This document shows positions 36,479 through 46,277 of a DNA stretch of 64,000 bases, piece after piece. The position numbers and the translations under genes were made by a program. This stretch comes from Erwinia persicina. Lineage in GTDB: Bacteria > Pseudomonadota > Gammaproteobacteria > Enterobacterales > Enterobacteriaceae. How positions within the stretch are numbered: the first letter of the stretch is position 1; each line of letters starts with the position of its first letter. The notes under the pieces are model-generated. The model made no database searches, had not been told where the DNA came from, and saw nothing but the letters and a program-made list of their open reading frames with translations. The DNA is taken from the NCBI RefSeq assembly GCF_014838825.1, contig NZ_JACYMO010000001.1:1134830-1198829 (forward strand), in the 5' to 3' direction.

Positions 36479-37624
36479 TCAGTGGAAATGTGAATGCCCG
36501 CCGAACCCCTCTGAACGGCTGTTATCCGCACCGTAACCGTGCCCACCGAAAGCATGGCTGTGAGCGTTGTCACTGCCACGATTATCGCCGCTAACCCGAC
36601 CTGTCGCCTTGTCATGGCTGACACCGTTACCACGACCTTCATGGATCAACGCGGGGATATGCGGTACCGCAACCTGGACGTCAGGGGCCAGGACAGACGC
36701 AGGTAACGTTTTGGTCACCCCTGCCAGCGTCACGTTAACCTGCGTGGTGGGCTGCAGAGAAGATGCCGCAACATTGATCGTAGCCGCCGCATATTTAGCG
36801 GCTGTCAGGGAAGCCTGAATCCCCTGCATCTGAGTTTGTACGGAAGAAGGCATGCCGCCCGTCACTGGTTTACCCGTAGGATCTTGCTTAACACCCGCGA
36901 CCATTGAGACCGGGTTAACCTGTGTGGTCGGCTGCAGAGAAGATGCCGCAACATTGATCGTAGCCGCCGCATATTTAGTGGCGGTCAGGGAAGCTTGAAT
37001 CCCCTGCATCTGAGTTTGTACGGAAGAAGGCATACCGCCCGTCACCGGTTTACCCGTAGGATCTTGCTTAACACCCGCGACCATTGAGACCGGCGTGCCG
37101 GTAGGGTCATTTTTCACCCTATTCACCATTGAGACCGGATTACCCTGCGGATTGGTGATGTTACCCGGCTGCTGGACCCAGCCAGCAGACTGATTATTTT
37201 TCGCGTCCGTATAGGACTGACCATAACCCGAAGACGGCTGACTGGCTGGCTGGCTCACTTCATTTTTCGCGTCCGTATAAGACTGACCATAACCCGAAGA
37301 CGGCTGACTGGCTGGCTGGTTCACTTCATTTTTCGCGTCCGTATAAGCTTGTCCAAACGTTTTCTGATGGGCGTCCTGAACCTGCTGGCGCCTGTAGGCA
37401 CCAAAATCCTGCTGACTGACCTGCTGACGCTGTACGCTTGCCTGGCCAGCGACTGCGCCAGCCTGCAGGGCAGCGGCGCTGTTTGTGCCGCTGTGCAACT
37501 GGACAGCATGGACATTCTCTGTCTGCCGATCGGCATTAGCATTAGCCTCGCTCAGGGACATTTGTGCGCCCGCAGAGACAGAAAAAAGAGATACAGCACA
37601 CATTGCTAACACTTTACCATTCAT
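36479..37624 (-). CDS. Secreted repeat protein with Gly/His-rich tail, function unknown
   Basis: I do not recognise this 381-residue protein. A signal peptide (1-20, ending SAGA) is followed by a Gln/Ala-rich region. A 22-residue repeat starting GQ(A/S)YTDAKNEV occurs at 91-112, 113-134 and partly 135-144. A 60-residue repeat with SMVAGVKQDPTGKPVTGG occurs at 178-237 and 238-297. The tail (about 330-381) is Gly/His/Ser-rich, ends GGHSHFH and could bind metal. No cysteine lies outside the signal peptide. It is convergent with tRNA-Pro and alone, with no export genes beside it. Periplasmic or surface location is inferred from the signal peptide only. Confidence 0.8.
   Translation of the reverse strand: MNGKVLAMCAVSLFSVSAGAQMSLSEANANADRQTENVHAVQLHSGTNSAAALQAGAVAGQASVQRQQVSQQDFGAYRRQQVQDAHQKTFGQAYTDAKNEVNQPASQPSSGYGQSYTDAKNEVSQPASQPSSGYGQSYTDAKNNQSAGWVQQPGNITNPQGNPVSMVNRVKNDPTGTPVSMVAGVKQDPTGKPVTGGMPSSVQTQMQGIQASLTATKYAAATINVAASSLQPTTQVNPVSMVAGVKQDPTGKPVTGGMPSSVQTQMQGIQASLTAAKYAAATINVAASSLQPTTQVNVTLAGVTKTLPASVLAPDVQVAVPHIPALIHEGRGNGVSHDKATGRVSGDNRGSDNAHSHAFGGHGYGADNSRSEGFGGHSHFH
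36734..37093 (-). repeat. Two tandem copies of a 180-bp unit
   Basis: Copies 36734-36913 and 36914-37093 are in exact 180-bp register and differ at about seven positions by eye. Each encodes 60 residues of the secreted repeat protein. The near-identity suggests recent duplication or gene conversion. Confidence 0.92.
37193..37354 (-). repeat. 66-bp tandem repeat, two full and one partial copy
   Basis: Units at 37289-37354 and 37223-37288, plus a partial unit 37193-37222, encode the 22-residue GQSYTDAKNEV repeat. It contains runs of GGCT/CTGG prone to slippage. Confidence 0.9.
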
Positions 37625-38011: not shown

Positions 38012-38614
38012 TTATTTCTGTCGCTCTGCTACTGTCATGGTGAACATAAGTGTGGTGTTACCGGCATTGGTATAATGGTGGGGGGCGTCAGTTCTGGCTA
38101 CAGCGGCACAGCCTTTCTCTATCCTCAATTCTGTACCGTCCACCTGAAGGGTTAATGTTCCTTCCTCAACATGGAACAACTCGAATGTGCCTGCGGGGTG
38201 TCCGGGAGAAGAAAAAAGCTCCCCGGGATACATCTCCCAGCGCCAGAGCTCGACCATATCTGGCCCACTGGTCCCGGCCAGTAGCCGTGCCGTCCCCCCG
38301 CGATCGCCCCGCCACAGCACCGGGATCTCATCCTGCTTAACAAGATGGACCGCCGGTTTACCCGCGACATCGACAATATCCGCCACTGATAGGCCCATCG
38401 CAGCAGAGATTTTGCATAAGATGGCAATACTGGGGTTGGCTGTGCCCTTTTCAATTTCAACCAGCATCCCTTTACTGACGCCTGCCCGACGTGATAACTC
38501 ATCGAGGGTAAATTTTTGCAGCTTACGGAAATTTTTTATTCTGGCGGCCAGCGCGTGGCTCACCGATTTCACATCAGCGCCCGAATAAGTCGATATATTG
38601 ACTTTTCCCGTCAT
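38012..38614 (-). CDS. XRE-family regulator with C-terminal cupin domain
   Basis: A 200-residue regulator: XRE helix-turn-helix at about residues 20-75 (KFTLDELSRRAGVSKGMLVEIE) and a cupin beta-barrel at about 115-195 (HPAGTFELFHVEEGTLTL). This architecture usually senses a small ligand through the cupin. It is divergent from a B3/B4-domain gene with 43 bp between the starts, and two direct repeats fill that gap, so it probably controls both. No good ribosome site precedes the ATG at 38614; a downstream start before the VSHALAARIKNFRK stretch is possible. Ligand unknown. Confidence 0.85.
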   Translation of the reverse strand: MTGKVNISTYSGADVKSVSHALAARIKNFRKLQKFTLDELSRRAGVSKGMLVEIEKGTANPSIAILCKISAAMGLSVADIVDVAGKPAVHLVKQDEIPVLWRGDRGGTARLLAGTSGPDMVELWRWEMYPGELFSSPGHPAGTFELFHVEEGTLTLQVDGTELRIEKGCAAVARTDAPHHYTNAGNTTLMFTMTVAERQK

Positions 38615-39769: not shown

Positions 39770-39819
39770 AGCCACTAACCTGTTTAAATAATTTATCGTT
39801 TTTGCACAGGTTAGTGGCT
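39770..39819. promoter_or_regulatory. Perfect 14-bp inverted repeat abutting a start codon
   Basis: AGCCACTAACCTGT (39770-39783) and ACAGGTTAGTGGCT (39806-39819) are exact inverse copies around a 22-bp AT-rich centre. The right arm ends at the base before the phosphopantetheinyl transferase ATG and contains its likely AGG ribosome site. It could be an operator dyad, a translation-blocking RNA hairpin, or a terminator stem for the preceding gene (no T-run follows). Confidence 0.8.
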
Positions 39820-40554
39820 ATGTCTGCACTGAACATTTCGTCCTCCTCCCCCTTTATTACTGACTTTTCGCTGCAACCGCTGCCTGACACCCCAGATATC
39901 AGCCTGCTGGACGTGCGTTATGACGTCGCTCATTTTAATGAATCTCTGTTTGGCCAGCTGAATATTCCGCCACCTGATCACCTGCAGCGTGCGGTTAAAA
40001 AGCGTCGTGCGGAATACCTCGCCAGCCGCTACGGCCTGCAACAGGCGCTGGCCAGCTGGGGGATTGCGGATTTTATATTGAGTAACGGGCCGGATCGCGC
40101 TCCGCGCTGGCCGCAGGGTGTTAACGGCTCTCTGTCTCATACCCATCAGCAAATATGTGCTCTGCTGACGCCGCGTCAGGACGTGATGCCGGGCGTGGAC
40201 TGTGAAACGATCATGACGGAAGAGATGGCCCGCGAAACCGGGAGAATGTTCATCGATGATGGGGAAAAAAAGCGGCTGGCGCAGTGTGAGGTGCCCTTCG
40301 CCACCGCGCTGACGGTGGCGTTCTCAGTGAAAGAGAGTCTGTATAAGGCGCTCTATCCGCAGATAAAGCAGTTTATGGATTTCAGCGCCGCGGAGATAGT
40401 GGCCTGCACTGGGGATTTGCAGTATCTCCGTCTGCGCCTGACACAAACATTTTCCCCGACAATGACCGTCGGGCGCATCTTCGAAGGCAGAGCCCTGCTG
40501 CACGCCGATCGCGTGATGACCTGGGTTACCGCCTCGTCGTCGACGGAAAATTAA
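39820..40554 (+). CDS. 4'-phosphopantetheinyl transferase, EntD-type
   Basis: A 244-residue Sfp/EntD-class enzyme that moves phosphopantetheine from CoA to carrier proteins of siderophore or other nonribosomal synthesis. Metal and CoA motifs are seen: GVDCE at 125-129 and FSVKESLYK at 168-176, 40 or so residues apart as the family requires; SLSHTHQQ near 105 matches the upstream family motif. The start is taken at ATG 39820; a TTG 18 bp upstream lies inside the inverted repeat. No carrier-protein or siderophore synthase gene is nearby, so the partner is elsewhere. Confidence 0.85.
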   Translation: MSALNISSSSPFITDFSLQPLPDTPDISLLDVRYDVAHFNESLFGQLNIPPPDHLQRAVKKRRAEYLASRYGLQQALASWGIADFILSNGPDRAPRWPQGVNGSLSHTHQQICALLTPRQDVMPGVDCETIMTEEMARETGRMFIDDGEKKRLAQCEVPFATALTVAFSVKESLYKALYPQIKQFMDFSAAEIVACTGDLQYLRLRLTQTFSPTMTVGRIFEGRALLHADRVMTWVTASSSTEN

Positions 40555-40721: not shown

Positions 40722-40919
40722 CTGTTCCTCTGTGAAGTGGACCTCTATTAAACCTGACGCTTTCTGCCCGGCAAAATATCCATTTTGCACAGCCTTTGCC
40801 AGTTCCCGGCATAAGCCCCCAATCCCATTTCTGAACTGATCTAAGCCAGAATTGTTGTTTTACAGCGGCGGGTGCGGCTTCAATAATTGCCGGCAACTGA
40901 TACCGTTCAAGGACGCATT

Positions 40920-41918
40920 ATGGCTTACCGACTGAGCTTACTGGATAAGAGTCCGCTTGCCGAGGGCGAAACCGCCGTGACGGCGCTGGCACGAACCCTG
41001 GCGCTGGCACAGCGCGCAGAGGCGCTCGGCTATCATCGCATCTGGCTGGCAGAGCACCATAACACCCCGTCGCTGGCCAGCCCGTCGCCGGAAATACTGA
41101 TCGCCTGGATTCTGGCGCACACCCGTCACATTCGAGTGGGTTCCGGCGGCGTGATGTTGCAGCACTACAGTCCGTATAAAGTGGCAGAGAACTTCAATCT
41201 GCTGGCCTCCCTGGCCCCGGGCCGGGTCGATCTTGGCATCGGTAAAGCTCCCGGCGGGCTGCCGCTGTCCACGAAAGCCTTGCAACAGGGTATTGACCCC
41301 GACGTGAAGGGAGACTTTGCCAGCCAGCTACGCGCGCTGGATCAGTGGCTGACGGCCTCCCCTGCCCCTGAAGGTGAAGATCCGTTACTGGCGACGCCGC
41401 TGCCTCCGCGTCCGGCAACCCGCTTTCTGCTGGGAGCCAGTGAAGCCAGCGCTCAGCTGGCCGCAGAGCTGAACTGGCAGTTTGTCTTTGCTGCCCACCT
41501 GAATGGAGACAGGCAGGAACTGGACCGCGCACTGACGGCTTTCCGCACGCTCAGCCAGGGGCAATCTGCGCTGCTGGCCGTGCAGATCATCGTTGCCGAT
41601 AGCGAAGCGGAAGCCGATCTGCTGGCGGCCGATTTACAGCACTTCCGCGTACATGTAGATAACGGCCAGAGCGTCACGGTGGGCAATCTGGCCCAGGCCG
41701 AAGCCTTTATCCGCCAGTCCGGTGCGAAACAACACCGGATTGAACCGCGTGAAGCCGCCGTACTGAAAGGCACTGCTGCACAGGTTCACGACCAGCTGGA
41801 CGCGCTGCATCAGCGTTTCGGGGTGGAAGAATTCATTATTGATATCCCGATTGCCGCCGGTGTACCACGCCTGAAATCCCTGCAACTGCTGGCCACCCAC
41901 CAGCCGGTAGCCGCTTAA
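40920..41918 (+). CDS. Luciferase-like FMN-dependent monooxygenase
   Basis: A 332-residue LLM-class flavin enzyme, beginning MAYRLSLLDKSPLAEGE. Family motifs are RIWLAEHHNTPSLASPSPE near residue 43, RVGSGGVMLQHYSPYKVAENF near 73 and GRVDLGIGKAPGG near 103. Length and the single-subunit form resemble Bacillus YtmO (about 330 residues) more than the longer YxeK. It heads a six-gene operon with an M20 deacylase, a GNAT and an amino-acid ABC importer, so an S-alkylated cysteine derivative is a reasonable substrate. ATG 40920 follows AAGGACGC; an earlier ATG at 40887 is not needed. Confidence 0.88.
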   Translation: MAYRLSLLDKSPLAEGETAVTALARTLALAQRAEALGYHRIWLAEHHNTPSLASPSPEILIAWILAHTRHIRVGSGGVMLQHYSPYKVAENFNLLASLAPGRVDLGIGKAPGGLPLSTKALQQGIDPDVKGDFASQLRALDQWLTASPAPEGEDPLLATPLPPRPATRFLLGASEASAQLAAELNWQFVFAAHLNGDRQELDRALTAFRTLSQGQSALLAVQIIVADSEAEADLLAADLQHFRVHVDNGQSVTVGNLAQAEAFIRQSGAKQHRIEPREAAVLKGTAAQVHDQLDALHQRFGVEEFIIDIPIAAGVPRLKSLQLLATHQPVAA

Positions 41919-41929
41919 GGAGCCCAACC

Positions 41930-43060
41930 ATGACCCTCTCTCTGACCCGGCAGCTGGTGGCCTGGCGCCGCGAACTGCATCAGTACCCGGAACTGTCCAA
42001 TGAGGAGTTTGCCACCACGGAGCGCATCACAGGCTGGCTGAACGAGGCTGGGATCCGGCTGCTGCCTTTCGGACTGAACACCGGCGTAGTGGCCGAGATT
42101 GGCGAGGGTGAACCACTGATTGCCCTGCGCGCCGATATTGATGCCCTGCCCATTGACGAGATCGTGCCGGTGCCGTTCCGTTCGCAGCACCCGGGCGTGA
42201 TGCACGCCTGCGGCCACGACGTACACACCGCCGTAATGCTGGGCGCAGCCAGGCTGCTGAAAGCGCGGGAAAAAAGCCTGCCCGGCCGCGTACGTCTGCT
42301 GTTCCAGCCCGCAGAAGAGCGCTTCGGCGGCGCGAAGACCCTGATCGATGCGGGTGCGCTGGCGGGCGTCGCGGCGATCTTCGGCATGCACAATGCGCCG
42401 GAGCTGCCGGTGGGCACCTTTGCCACGCGCGGCGGTGCGTTTTACGCCAATGTCGACCGTTTTGATATCAACGTGTACGGCAAGGGTGCGCACGCCGCCC
42501 GTCCGCAGGAAGGAGTGGATGCCATTGTGATCGCCAGTCAGATCGTCAGTGCCTTACAGACCCTGGTCAGCCGCAGCTACAGCCCGCTGGAGTCGGTGGT
42601 GGTCAGCGTAACGCGTATTGAGGGCGGGAATACCTGGAACGTATTGCCGCAGCAGGTAGTACTGGAAGGCACGGTACGCACCCATAACGACGACATCCGC
42701 AGCGAACTACCGCAGCGGCTGCGTCAGTTGATAACCGGTATTGCCGCAGGGCTGGGTGCCCGTGCTGAACTGAACTGGCACCCCGGCCCGCCGGCCTTGA
42801 TCAACACCGCGCACTGGGCAGAATTCAGCAAGCAGGTGGCTGCCCGTCAGGGTTACGACGTGCAGGAGGCCGAGCTGCAAATGGGCGGCGAAGATTTTGC
42901 CTTTTATCTGCATAACACGCCGGGCACCTTTGTCAGCATCGGCAGCAACAGCGAGTTCGGTCTGCACCATCCTGGCTTTAACCCGGATGAGGCCCTGCTC
43001 TCGCCAGCCGCCGGGTACTTCAGCCAGCTGGCGGAAGCGGCACTTAATGAGATCGCTTAA
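41930..43060 (+). CDS. M20D-family amidohydrolase (YxeP-like N-deacylase)
   Basis: A 376-residue metal-dependent amidohydrolase of peptidase family M20D, the class that removes N-acyl groups from amino acids (hippurate hydrolase, IAA-amino acid hydrolase, Bacillus YxeP). Metal-ligand motifs are visible: MHACGHDVHTAV near residue 91, LLFQPAEE near 124, FGMHNAPELP near 150 and GGEDFAFYL near 320. In this operon it would remove an acetyl group from an intermediate. AAGGAGCCAACC precedes the start, 11 bp after the monooxygenase. Confidence 0.9.
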   Translation: MTLSLTRQLVAWRRELHQYPELSNEEFATTERITGWLNEAGIRLLPFGLNTGVVAEIGEGEPLIALRADIDALPIDEIVPVPFRSQHPGVMHACGHDVHTAVMLGAARLLKAREKSLPGRVRLLFQPAEERFGGAKTLIDAGALAGVAAIFGMHNAPELPVGTFATRGGAFYANVDRFDINVYGKGAHAARPQEGVDAIVIASQIVSALQTLVSRSYSPLESVVVSVTRIEGGNTWNVLPQQVVLEGTVRTHNDDIRSELPQRLRQLITGIAAGLGARAELNWHPGPPALINTAHWAEFSKQVAARQGYDVQEAELQMGGEDFAFYLHNTPGTFVSIGSNSEFGLHHPGFNPDEALLSPAAGYFSQLAEAALNEIA

Positions 43061-43116
43061 CGGGCAGTAACCGGCCCTTTTCATCTGCAGTTTCATCATA
43101 ATAAGAGTCAGTCACT

Positions 43117-44058
43117 ATGAAAAAAACATCCGTATTACTGGGCCTGCTCAGTGCATCCCTGTGGCTTGGCACCACGGCAAACGCAGAAACCGTCAACATT
43201 AATGGCACCGGCATCAGCGTCGAGGCGAATGCAGCGCCCGTGCATGCGCCGGTCAATCCCGAGGCGGTGGCCCTGCTGCCGAAGAACCTTAAACTGGCCG
43301 TGCCGGGCAAGTTTACCGTGGCGGTGGCCGCGCTGAACTCCCCGCCGCTGACCCTGTTTTCTGATGACAACAAAACCCTGCAGGGCAGTGAAGTGGATAT
43401 CGCCCGCCTGGTCGCCGACAGCCTCGGGCTGGAGCTGAACGTGGTGCCGACCTCCTGGGAAGACTGGCCGCTGGGTGTCAGCTCCGGCAAATATGATGCC
43501 GCCATCACCAATGTCACCGTCACCAAAGCGCGCAAAGAAAAATTCGATTTCGCTACCTACCGCAAAGATTCCCTCGGTTTCTACGTGAAATCGGACAGCA
43601 AAATCACTTCACTGACCAAAGCCGAAGACATTGCCGGACTGCGCATTATTGTTGGTTCCGGCACCAATCAGGAAGCGATCCTGCTGGCCTGGGATGAAGA
43701 GAATCAGAAAAAAGGGCTGAAGCCGTTCACGCCTAACTACGTGAAAGATGATGCGGCCCAGACGCTGGCATTACAGTCCGGTCGTGCCGATGCCTATTTC
43801 GGGCCGAACGTCATTGGTGCCTGGAAAGCCGCACTGACCGGTAAAACAAAACGGGTGGGCACCGTGGATGGCGGCTGGCCGAAAGCGGCACATATCGCGG
43901 TGACACTGAAAAAAGACAACGGGCTGGTGGCCGCCGTAAACGCTGCGCTAAATGGCGTGATCAAAGGCGGCGAGTACGACAAAGTCCTCAACCGCTGGGG
44001 CGAGGGTATCGAGCGCCTCGATCGTTCTGAAATCAACCCGCCGGGGCTGGGTGACTAA
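43117..44058 (+). CDS. Amino-acid ABC transporter substrate-binding protein
   Basis: A 313-residue periplasmic binding protein of the SBP_bac_3 family (polar amino acids). A signal peptide (1-23, ending ANA) leads to two lobes with GSEVDIARLVADSLGLEL near residue 90 and YDAAITNVTVTKAR near 126. It is longer at the N-terminus than cystine-binding FliY/TcyJ by about 40 residues. It supplies the permease and ATPase encoded downstream in the same operon. Confidence 0.9.
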   Translation: MKKTSVLLGLLSASLWLGTTANAETVNINGTGISVEANAAPVHAPVNPEAVALLPKNLKLAVPGKFTVAVAALNSPPLTLFSDDNKTLQGSEVDIARLVADSLGLELNVVPTSWEDWPLGVSSGKYDAAITNVTVTKARKEKFDFATYRKDSLGFYVKSDSKITSLTKAEDIAGLRIIVGSGTNQEAILLAWDEENQKKGLKPFTPNYVKDDAAQTLALQSGRADAYFGPNVIGAWKAALTGKTKRVGTVDGGWPKAAHIAVTLKKDNGLVAAVNAALNGVIKGGEYDKVLNRWGEGIERLDRSEINPPGLGD

Positions 44059-44069
44059 CGGAGGTCAGT

Positions 44070-44594
44070 ATGAGCCATGAACAATTTCGCCAGCTGTCAC
44101 CGGAGGCACCGGAGCTGGCATCTATTATTGACGGACTCTTCGGAGAATACAGCGCCCGCTACGGTGACTTTTTTGCCCGGGATGCCGAAGTCGAACTGAC
44201 CGAATGGTATCTGCCCCCGCAGGGGATGTTTGTAGTACTGGAGCGCGACGGGGTCATTATTGCGATGGGGGCTTATAAGGCTTTCGACGCGGAGACGGCC
44301 GAATTAAAGCGTATCTGGACCCGCAGCGATCTGCGCCGTCAGGGGCTGGCGCTGAAAGTGCTGGTTGAACTGGAGCGACGGGCCGGGCTGGCGGGTTACC
44401 GACAGGTTTATCTGACCACCGGATTTCGTCAGCCGGAAGCGGTACGCCTCTATTTATCACACGGCTATCAGCCACAGTTCGACACGCAGCGTGACCCGGA
44501 AGAGTACAGCCTGCCGCCTTACGATGGCCGCCTGCGTTTTACCAAAGCACTTCACCATCACGCCGAGTCAGGAGCCGCCCATGAAACCGAATGA
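44070..44594 (+). CDS. GNAT-family N-acetyltransferase
   Basis: A 174-residue acetyl-CoA-dependent transferase. The GNAT core shows ELKRIWTRSDLRRQGLALKVL near residue 74, with RRQGLA matching the acetyl-CoA motif A. GGAGGTCAGT precedes the start. It lies inside the ABC operon between binding protein and permease and overlaps the permease start by 14 bp. In the Bacillus yxe/ytm loci the GNAT acetylates the imported S-modified cysteine; the same role is inferred here. Confidence 0.85.
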   Translation: MSHEQFRQLSPEAPELASIIDGLFGEYSARYGDFFARDAEVELTEWYLPPQGMFVVLERDGVIIAMGAYKAFDAETAELKRIWTRSDLRRQGLALKVLVELERRAGLAGYRQVYLTTGFRQPEAVRLYLSHGYQPQFDTQRDPEEYSLPPYDGRLRFTKALHHHAESGAAHETE

Positions 44595-45483
44595 AACCCT
44601 GCGCGTGGTGCCTGCCCGCTATCCGCTGCGGCTGGTTGGGGCGGTTGTTGCCCTGTTTATTCTGGCCGTGGTGATCCAGTCCATCGCCTTTAATCCGCGC
44701 TGGGAATGGTCGGTATTTGCCCACTGGTTCTTTGCACCCGCGATCCTCAGCGGTCTCGGGCAGACGCTGCTGCTGACGCTGATCGCCAGCCTGCTGAGTA
44801 TTCTGCTGGGCGTGGGGCTGGCGCTGGCCCGCCTCTCCTCCTCTTGGTTGCTCTCCGGCCTGGCGTTCGGCTATATCTGGCTGTTCCGTTCGCTGCCGCT
44901 GATCGTGGTACTGATTATTCTTTATAACTTCTCCTATCTCTACGACACCCTGTCACTTGGCGTTCCCTTTACCCCGTTGACGCTGGTGGAGTATAAAACC
45001 ATTGATGTCCTGGGGCAGTTCAGCACGGCGGTGATCGGGCTGACGCTGGTGCAGGCAGCCTATACCGCCGAGATTATACGTGGCGGTATTACCGGCGTGG
45101 ATCAGGGGCAGTTTGAAGCGGCCGCTGCGCTGGGTCTGCCCTCTTCTCGCCGCACGCTGCGCATTATTCTGCCGCAGGCGCTGCGTTCCATTATTCCGAC
45201 CGGGTTTAACGAAATTATCAGCCTCGCCAAAGGCACTGCGATGGTGTACGTACTGGCGATGCCGGAGCTCTTTTACACCATCCAGATGGTTTATAACCGC
45301 ACGCAACAGGTGATCCCGCTGCTGATGGTAGCAGCAGTCTGGTATCTGCTGATCACCACCGTGCTGTCAGTTTTGCAATACTACGTTGAACGCTGGCTGG
45401 CACGCGGGGCCACCCGTGAGCCGGTCAGCCGCCTCTCATCTACCCGGCTGCATGCCGCCATCGCCCCCGTCAGGAGCTCATAA
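44581..45483 (+). CDS. Amino-acid ABC transporter permease
   Basis: A 300-residue HisM/GlnP-type permease with about five membrane segments and the EAA loop EAAAALGLPSSRRTLRIILPQALR near residue 180. Only one permease gene is present, so it may act as a homodimer. The start at 44581 (MKPNETLRVV) is inside the end of the GNAT gene and follows AGGAGCCGCCC. The stop shares a base with the ATPase start. Confidence 0.9.
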   Translation: MKPNETLRVVPARYPLRLVGAVVALFILAVVIQSIAFNPRWEWSVFAHWFFAPAILSGLGQTLLLTLIASLLSILLGVGLALARLSSSWLLSGLAFGYIWLFRSLPLIVVLIILYNFSYLYDTLSLGVPFTPLTLVEYKTIDVLGQFSTAVIGLTLVQAAYTAEIIRGGITGVDQGQFEAAAALGLPSSRRTLRIILPQALRSIIPTGFNEIISLAKGTAMVYVLAMPELFYTIQMVYNRTQQVIPLLMVAAVWYLLITTVLSVLQYYVERWLARGATREPVSRLSSTRLHAAIAPVRSS

Positions 45484-46277
45484 TGTCTGAAGCTATCGAT
45501 CTGCACAGTGAGGCCACGCTGGGTCATATTTCCATTGCCGGGGTCAGTAAAAGCTATGGCCGTTTTAAGGCACTGGACGAGGTATCGCTGGAACTCCCCC
45601 CTGGCTCTGTCACGGTGATCCTCGGGCCGTCAGGCTCAGGGAAGTCCACGCTGCTGCGCGCCATCAACCATCTGGAGCGGGTGGATGAAGGGCTTATCCG
45701 CATTGATGGTGACTACATTGGTTACCGGCGCAAAGGGAATAAGCTGTATGAGCTGAAGGAGAAGGCGATCCTCCGGCAGCGTATCGGTGTGGGCTATGTG
45801 TTCCAGAATTTCAATTTGTTCCCTCATCTCACGGTGCTGGAAAATATTATCGAAGCGCCCCTGGCCCATAAGCAATTAACGCGGGCGGCGGCAGAAGAAC
45901 GGGCGTTACAGCTGCTCGACACCGTTGGCCTGCGGCATAAAGCCGGGGCATGGCCGCGCCATCTTTCCGGCGGTCAGCAACAGCGCGTGGCGATTGCCCG
46001 GGCGCTGGCGTTAAATCCGAAGGTTATCCTGTTTGATGAACCGACATCGGCGCTTGATCCGGAGCTGGTCGGCGAGGTACTGGACACCATCAAACAGCTG
46101 GCACGCTCCGGGAGGACGCTGGTCGTGGTGACTCATGAGATCGGTTTTGCCCGTGAAGTTGCGGATAACGTGGTGTTTATGGTCGAAGGGAAGATTGTGG
46201 AACAGGGCAGCGCCTGGCAGGTGCTGAACCAGCCGCAGCATCCGCGGACGCGGCGTTTTCTGGCGAAGGTATTGTGA
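45483..46277 (+). CDS. Amino-acid ABC transporter ATP-binding protein
   Basis: A 264-residue ATPase of the GlnQ/HisP class: Walker A GPSGSGKST near residue 50, signature LSGGQQQRV near 162, Walker B VILFDEPTSALD near 180 and switch histidine in VVVTHE. It overlaps the permease by one base and ends the six-gene operon. A 9-bp hairpin lies 35 bp after its stop. Confidence 0.92.
   Translation: MSEAIDLHSEATLGHISIAGVSKSYGRFKALDEVSLELPPGSVTVILGPSGSGKSTLLRAINHLERVDEGLIRIDGDYIGYRRKGNKLYELKEKAILRQRIGVGYVFQNFNLFPHLTVLENIIEAPLAHKQLTRAAAEERALQLLDTVGLRHKAGAWPRHLSGGQQQRVAIARALALNPKVILFDEPTSALDPELVGEVLDTIKQLARSGRTLVVVTHEIGFAREVADNVVFMVEGKIVEQGSAWQVLNQPQHPRTRRFLAKVL

Follow-up and report, generated by a model that had tools for sequence, protein, structure and literature searches.

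A six-gene operon in a 64,000-nucleotide stretch of the Erwinia persicina genome (the window; contig NZ_JACYMO010000001.1 of assembly GCF_014838825.1) encodes a luciferase-like flavin monooxygenase (LLM1), an M20 deacylase, an acetyltransferase of the GNAT family, and the binding protein, permease and ATPase of an ATP-binding cassette (ABC) transporter. Judged by the families of its products, a predicted role in the salvage of S-modified cysteine is well supported. We propose that the operon covers import, acetylation, S-oxygenation and deacetylation in a salvage pathway of the cmo type, and that a remote gene provides the enzyme that cleaves the C-S bond, a reading to which we assign a probability of roughly 0.57. 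This split pathway is supported by the co-occurrence of two monooxygenases, by a YtnJ-like gene in 72 of the 80 related loci compared, by the pairing of both monooxygenases in other cassettes, by purifying selection, and by the match of the M20 protein to YxeP.

In the proposed scheme, the ABC transporter would import an S-modified cysteine, which GNAT would then N-acetylate. LLM1, with reduced flavin mononucleotide (FMN) from a separate reductase, would turn the sulfur into a sulfoxide. The reduced flavin might come from a reductase at G000:C2:176242 (G000 being the host genome, 4.8 Mb in 60 contigs), which matches at 38% a gene adjoining LLM1 in Niallia that we read as an FMN reductase, or from Fre. 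The remote CmoJ-family monooxygenase (G000:C1:283424-284761) would cleave the C-S bond to give a sulfenic acid, cellular thiols would reduce this to N-acetylcysteine, and the M20 enzyme would free cysteine. The sequences themselves show the gene content, the family of each product, the lineage-specific lack of a CmoJ-type gene, the joint occurrence of both monooxygenases and purifying selection on each; each chemical step, the substrate, and the service of the remote enzyme to this operon are inferred. In PMC10863075, S-oxygenation is assigned to CmoO and the sulfoxide C-S monooxygenase step to CmoJ, which is said to be homologous to YxeK and DszA.

Related loci were taken as the best 80 of 108 relatives from a GNAT scan of named species genomes, some of them truncated by contig ends, and were scored with the window proteins together with the proteins of one Enterobacter locus. 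In 72 of the 80, an extra gene of ~437 codons lies between the M20 and binding-protein genes. Its product belongs to the NtaA/DmoA family of monooxygenases and, among solved chains, scores highest with MoxC and B. subtilis YtnJ, all at 569 bits; we equate YtnJ with the sulfoxide C-S monooxygenase CmoJ. Eight loci have no extra gene: the Erwinia-group loci L001-L007, of which one carries the label Pantoea coffeiphila, and L010 (Winslowiella arboricola), where M20 is missing too. A second binding-protein gene follows the ATPase gene in at least 53 of the 80. The six window genes are collinear in L001-L007 (7/80), and most other loci have the same order plus the inserted gene, so the arrangement is not due to chance. 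A near search of E. coli genomes returned no match at the sensitivity used. A partial CmoJ-type match in G128, at first considered a decaying gene and a loss in progress, turned out to reflect a stretch of N in the assembly, and that idea was dropped.

LLM1 scores 333.7 bits against the MsnO8 family model TIGR03558 (cut-off 166.95), and is a probable S-oxygenase, proposed to be of the CmoO type in view of its family and its relatives in Bacillota clusters. It matches at 43-44% the luciferase-like monooxygenases clustered with CmoJ types in two Bacillota plasmid records that were found using YtnJ; in Paenibacillus the order is ATPase, LLM1 relative, M20 (51%), one other frame and CmoJ type (63%). 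These relatives are closer to LLM1 than is a paralogue in its own genome (34%), which we call YhbW-like from its NCBIfam resemblance. No protein named CmoO is among the best 120 of 6429 or the best 120 of 7065 homologue matches, which hold close relatives only. In an LLM1 tree built from hand-picked rows, two branches are very long and little is decided. CmoO (O34846) is labelled an N-acetyl-S-alkylcysteine monooxygenase in PMC11354265.

The ratio of nonsynonymous to synonymous substitution rates (dN/dS) for operon genes against three relatives ranges from 0.007 to 0.141 over 17 gene comparisons (0.083-0.141 for LLM1), indicating purifying selection. The binding-protein gene of L003 was left out of this set, and the permease stretch of L003 as cut contained a stop. 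The remote gene is likewise under purifying selection, with dN/dS of 0.048-0.087 in three comparisons.

The two monooxygenases tend to be found in the same genomes. LLM1 (E<=1e-80) is present in 22 of the 119 genomes of a family sample with one genome per genus, and a CmoJ type at E<=1e-150 is found in all 22 of these versus 2 of the 97 genomes without LLM1. A cut of E<=1e-100, which adds relatives at 42-47%, raises the latter count to 9 of 97. Of the two genomes counted at the stricter cut, one (G014) carries a fragment of LLM1 next to the CmoJ type, and in the other (G024) the CmoJ types are on short contigs. The starts of the two genes are within about 2.5 kb of each other in 20 of the 22 genomes; the exceptions are the host genome, where 892 kb separate them, and G025, where the distance is 1.37 Mb. 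In a genus sample of 37 genomes, with LLM1 called at E<=1e-60, 26 have LLM1; a CmoJ type at E<=1e-150 occurs in 25 of these versus 0 of the 11 without it, and E<=1e-100 adds one of the 11 (G130). The one genome of the 26 without such a CmoJ type is G136. The pairing of LLM1 and CmoJ type is a statistical one.

The remote gene is the closest CmoJ relative in the host genome, the next standing at 44% to the Enterobacter operon-type enzyme. In five congeneric genomes (G132, G142, G144, G146 and G147), its orthologue directly adjoins a second LLM1-type gene; the paired genes diverge from a set of related transporter genes, in G132 together with GNAT and M20 genes. A tree of 39 hand-picked rows places the remote gene and the paired orthologues in one clade (100/100), which joins the operon type before the Bacillota types with moderate support (82/83). 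At least two paralogous cassettes containing LLM1 and CmoJ types therefore exist. Most simply, one cassette would have lost its CmoJ-type gene in the window lineage and the other its LLM1-type gene. A third layout, on an Ewingella plasmid, combines LLM1, GNAT and CmoJ type with a dipeptide-type transporter, and G142 has it without the transporter. Two further clusters were seen in the host genome. One (L099 5406-10650, G000:C12, - strand) encodes a same-family transporter, a monooxygenase of the NtaA type that matches the CmoJ type at 44%, and a protein weakly matching the 2-methylcitrate dehydratase (PrpD) family. The other (L100 3575-13488, G000:C1, about 253-263 kb) encodes three luciferase-like monooxygenases, an ABC transporter and a putative sigma-54-type regulator, and probably represents another organosulfur pathway.

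Several observations weigh against the split pathway. The remote gene product matches the Enterobacter operon-type enzyme at 55%. Its best solved match is 3sdo, which bears the name nitrilotriacetate monooxygenase (545 bits), and YtnJ follows at 479 bits, so it is a CmoJ-family member rather than a plain CmoJ. In four of four loci (its own, G131, G138 and G150), the gene is followed by a GNAT gene of another kind, and it lacks the promoter block of the operon. G024 has a cassette with a remote-type gene, M20, GNAT and a transporter, without LLM1. The Fisher values for co-occurrence (5e-22 in the family, 1e-8 in the genus) ignore descent, and the E-value cuts were picked after the lists had been viewed. 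The strongest single fact on this side is G136, where the operon is complete but the remote gene is reduced to a fragment (residues 3-160 of 446); this may also mean that the species is losing the pathway.

G136 also favours an alternative in which the six genes suffice by themselves, either because the MsnO8-type LLM1 itself cleaves the C-S bond or because its product falls apart, so that a CmoJ type is unneeded. The operon without a CmoJ type has been kept in L001-L007, with LLM1 at the dN/dS values given above, and among 102 yxe loci surveyed in PMC9706529, 11 have neither YxeK nor 2SL. However, both monooxygenases co-occur in 22 of 22 genera and in 25 of 26 congeneric genomes. The first-pass annotation took the operon for a compact version of such a pathway; it is probably not a self-sufficient one, because a CmoJ-type C-S monooxygenase is absent from its six genes. 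We consider self-sufficiency unlikely; were it correct, a single monooxygenase of a new kind would carry out all of the C-S cleavage in the Erwinia group by a chemistry distinct from that of YxeK, 2SL and the CmoO/CmoJ pair.

The M20 protein, an M20D enzyme, is proposed to be an N-acetylcysteine deacetylase of the YxeP/ScmP type, its closest relative being taken among solved chains. YxeP is the best such match (376 bits), and the metal-site motifs HACGHD, PAEE, MHN and HHP are common to both proteins. The second match, a plant homologue of indole-3-acetic acid (IAA)-amino acid hydrolase at 251 bits, could point to a role apart from cysteine, in which some other N-acyl or amino compound from plants is taken up and modified (for example an auxin-amide, or an amino acid whose toxicity is removed by acetylation), and both M20D enzymes and GNATs are versatile. 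We think such a role improbable, for YxeP is ahead by about 126 bits, the closest transporter equivalogs are for cystine, and the sister operons have a YtnJ homologue. Placement of the M20 protein with auxin-amide enzymes, named earlier as a possible refutation of the cysteine assignment, is a weaker fit than YxeP. In Pantoea allii (L078 3506-4650), the reading of the operon M20 gene is spread over two frames, and upstream, on the opposite strand, there is another M20 gene. PMC12757645 reports that ScmP (YxeP), YhaA and YtnL all deacetylate N-acetylcysteine; this reaction is common to several pathways, and M20 therefore does not reveal which S-substituent is removed.

As candidate substrates, glutathione conjugates would fit the glutathione S-transferase-like gene found nearby in 32 of the 80 loci; the window has no such gene. 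Plant S-alkylcysteine sulfoxides are another possibility; for these the CmoJ type would be enough by itself, and the G024 cassette without LLM1 might be explained in this way.

The first-pass annotation anticipated that an S-modified cysteine is imported, N-acetylated, subjected to flavin chemistry and deacetylated, and this is supported by the YxeP match, the metal-site motifs and the YtnJ homologue of the sister operons. Its comparison with both yxe and ytm survives in part, with kinship to ytm (cmo) upheld and kinship to yxe not, given the MsnO8-type LLM1 and the YtnJ homologue in sister operons. The B. subtilis ytm/ytn (cmo) system likewise has a GNAT, a cystine-type amino-acid ABC transporter, an MsnO8-sized monooxygenase and an M20 deacetylase, the grouping of acetyltransferase, importer and deacetylase genes within a single operon being a likeness of classes only. 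It also shares a YtnJ (CmoJ) homologue and, often, a second binding protein with the sister Enterobacterales operons, whereas the window operon has neither, and its closest CmoJ relative is unlinked. The window also differs from the Bacillus gene set in having one permease gene instead of two and no redoxin or riboflavin-related gene. The transporter classes assigned earlier are correct, with one refinement: for all three components (permease, ATPase, binding protein) the best NCBIfam equivalog is a subunit of a cystine transporter and not of a His/Gln one, each under its curated cut-off.

The M20 match is also a tie to B. subtilis yxe (scm), with which the operon shares its gene classes. The window monooxygenase is set apart from YxeK by family, being MsnO8 and not of the NtaA/DszA type, and a domain search found neither a YxeK-type monooxygenase nor a 2SL lyase among the six genes. 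A search for 2SL elsewhere in the genome gave four Lyase_1 matches only, presumably the number expected for purB, argH, fumC and aspA. It is quite doubtful that the operon serves S-(2-succino)cysteine as yxe does, using another breakdown enzyme: the remote gene shares the NtaA/DszA type with YxeK, but the extra enzyme of sister operons is nearest YtnJ, no lyase is present in the operon, and the M20 protein is not diagnostic (PMC12757645). The logic of acetylation, breakdown and deacetylation is common to yxe (PMC9706529 and PMC12757645) and to its 2SL variant in Dickeya and Enterococcus (PMC9706529), in which the breakdown enzyme is a fumarase-class lyase that the window operon lacks. The Listeria ytmI operon, according to PMC9239247, includes a cystine/cysteine transporter and the YtmO monooxygenase and FMN reductase with unclear function.

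Upstream regions were aligned for eight Erwinia-group sequences (the window and L001-L007), and for sets of 14 and 12 other loci hand-picked from the 80; each set has its own conserved promoter-like block. TGTTGTTTTAC and AATAAT are invariant in all eight Erwinia-group sequences, in which the AAATA and CATTT core of the possible operator is also conserved. As to the CysB or Cbl sites suggested earlier, the alignments yield this promoter-like block, and we claim no such site. The block occurs once in the genome at <=1 mismatch, and a whole-genome search at <=3 mismatches gave 18 matches versus 17 for the reversed control, and thus no regulon.

Features of the operon and its upstream region (window positions)
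Feature	Position	Strand	Description
Possible operator GCAAAATATCCATTTTGC	40771-40788		Inverted-repeat-like; upstream of operon
Promoter-like block TTGTTGTTTTAC (to 40863), then AATAAT (40882-40887)	40846-40887	+	
LLM1	40920-41918	+	MsnO8-family flavin monooxygenase (TIGR03558); proposed CmoO-type S-oxygenase
M20D deacylase	41930-43060	+	Proposed N-acetylcysteine deacetylase; TIGR01891 377 bits, YxeP match
M20-SBP junction	43061-43116		Site of the CmoJ-type gene in 72/80 related loci; empty in the window
SBP_bac_3 periplasmic binding protein	43117-44058	+	PF00497; best equivalog cystine-binding protein, below cut-off
GNAT	44070-44594	+	PF00583; proposed N-acetyltransferase for S-modified cysteine
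Amino-acid-type ABC permease	44581-45483	+	PF00528; TIGR01726 above cut-off
ABC ATPase	45483-46277	+	Nearest equivalog TcyN; NF008428 307.9 bits, below cut-off of 406

Coordinates, Pfam and NCBIfam bear out the tightly spaced plus-strand operon described at first pass: successive gaps are 11, 56 and 11 bp, followed by overlaps of 14 and 1 bp, with the ATG start of the permease gene chosen manually. Also as described, no regulator adjoins it, the nearest helix-turn-helix gene seen being an XRE-cupin gene (38012-38614) two genes upstream. The other upstream neighbours are a phosphopantetheinyl transferase gene (39802-40554) and a B3/4-domain gene, and putative ABC exporter, AlkB-like, ApbE-like and porin genes are read from the open reading frames downstream on the opposite strand. 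The nearest named relative of the window GNAT is from Erwinia persicina (98%). Compared with E. persicina NBRC 102418 (L001), window positions 41000-43000 have 83-90% identity over LLM1 and M20, and the remainder of the 13-kb match is mostly at 91-98%; synonymous divergence (dS) is 0.49-0.68 for these two genes versus 0.13-0.23 for the other four. The pattern suggests a recombination tract with one end close to the M20-SBP junction. Elsewhere in the window, an apparently secreted repetitive protein with long near-identical internal repeats (36479-37624, - strand) adjoins a tRNA-Pro gene.

Among titles and abstract openings of the open-access literature, to the exclusion of subscription papers, we recognised no description of this enterobacterial operon, which we rate as a variant of known S-alkylcysteine salvage. 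If the split pathway is correct, the two-flavoenzyme S-alkylcysteine pathway of Bacillus would also be placed in many Enterobacterales, and the operon would have survived the loss of its cleavage gene because the paralogue of a sister cassette could serve. The case also urges caution in reading pathways from one operon, since a gene missing locally may be present at a distance. The split lets the division of labour between both monooxygenases be tested by two single-gene deletions.

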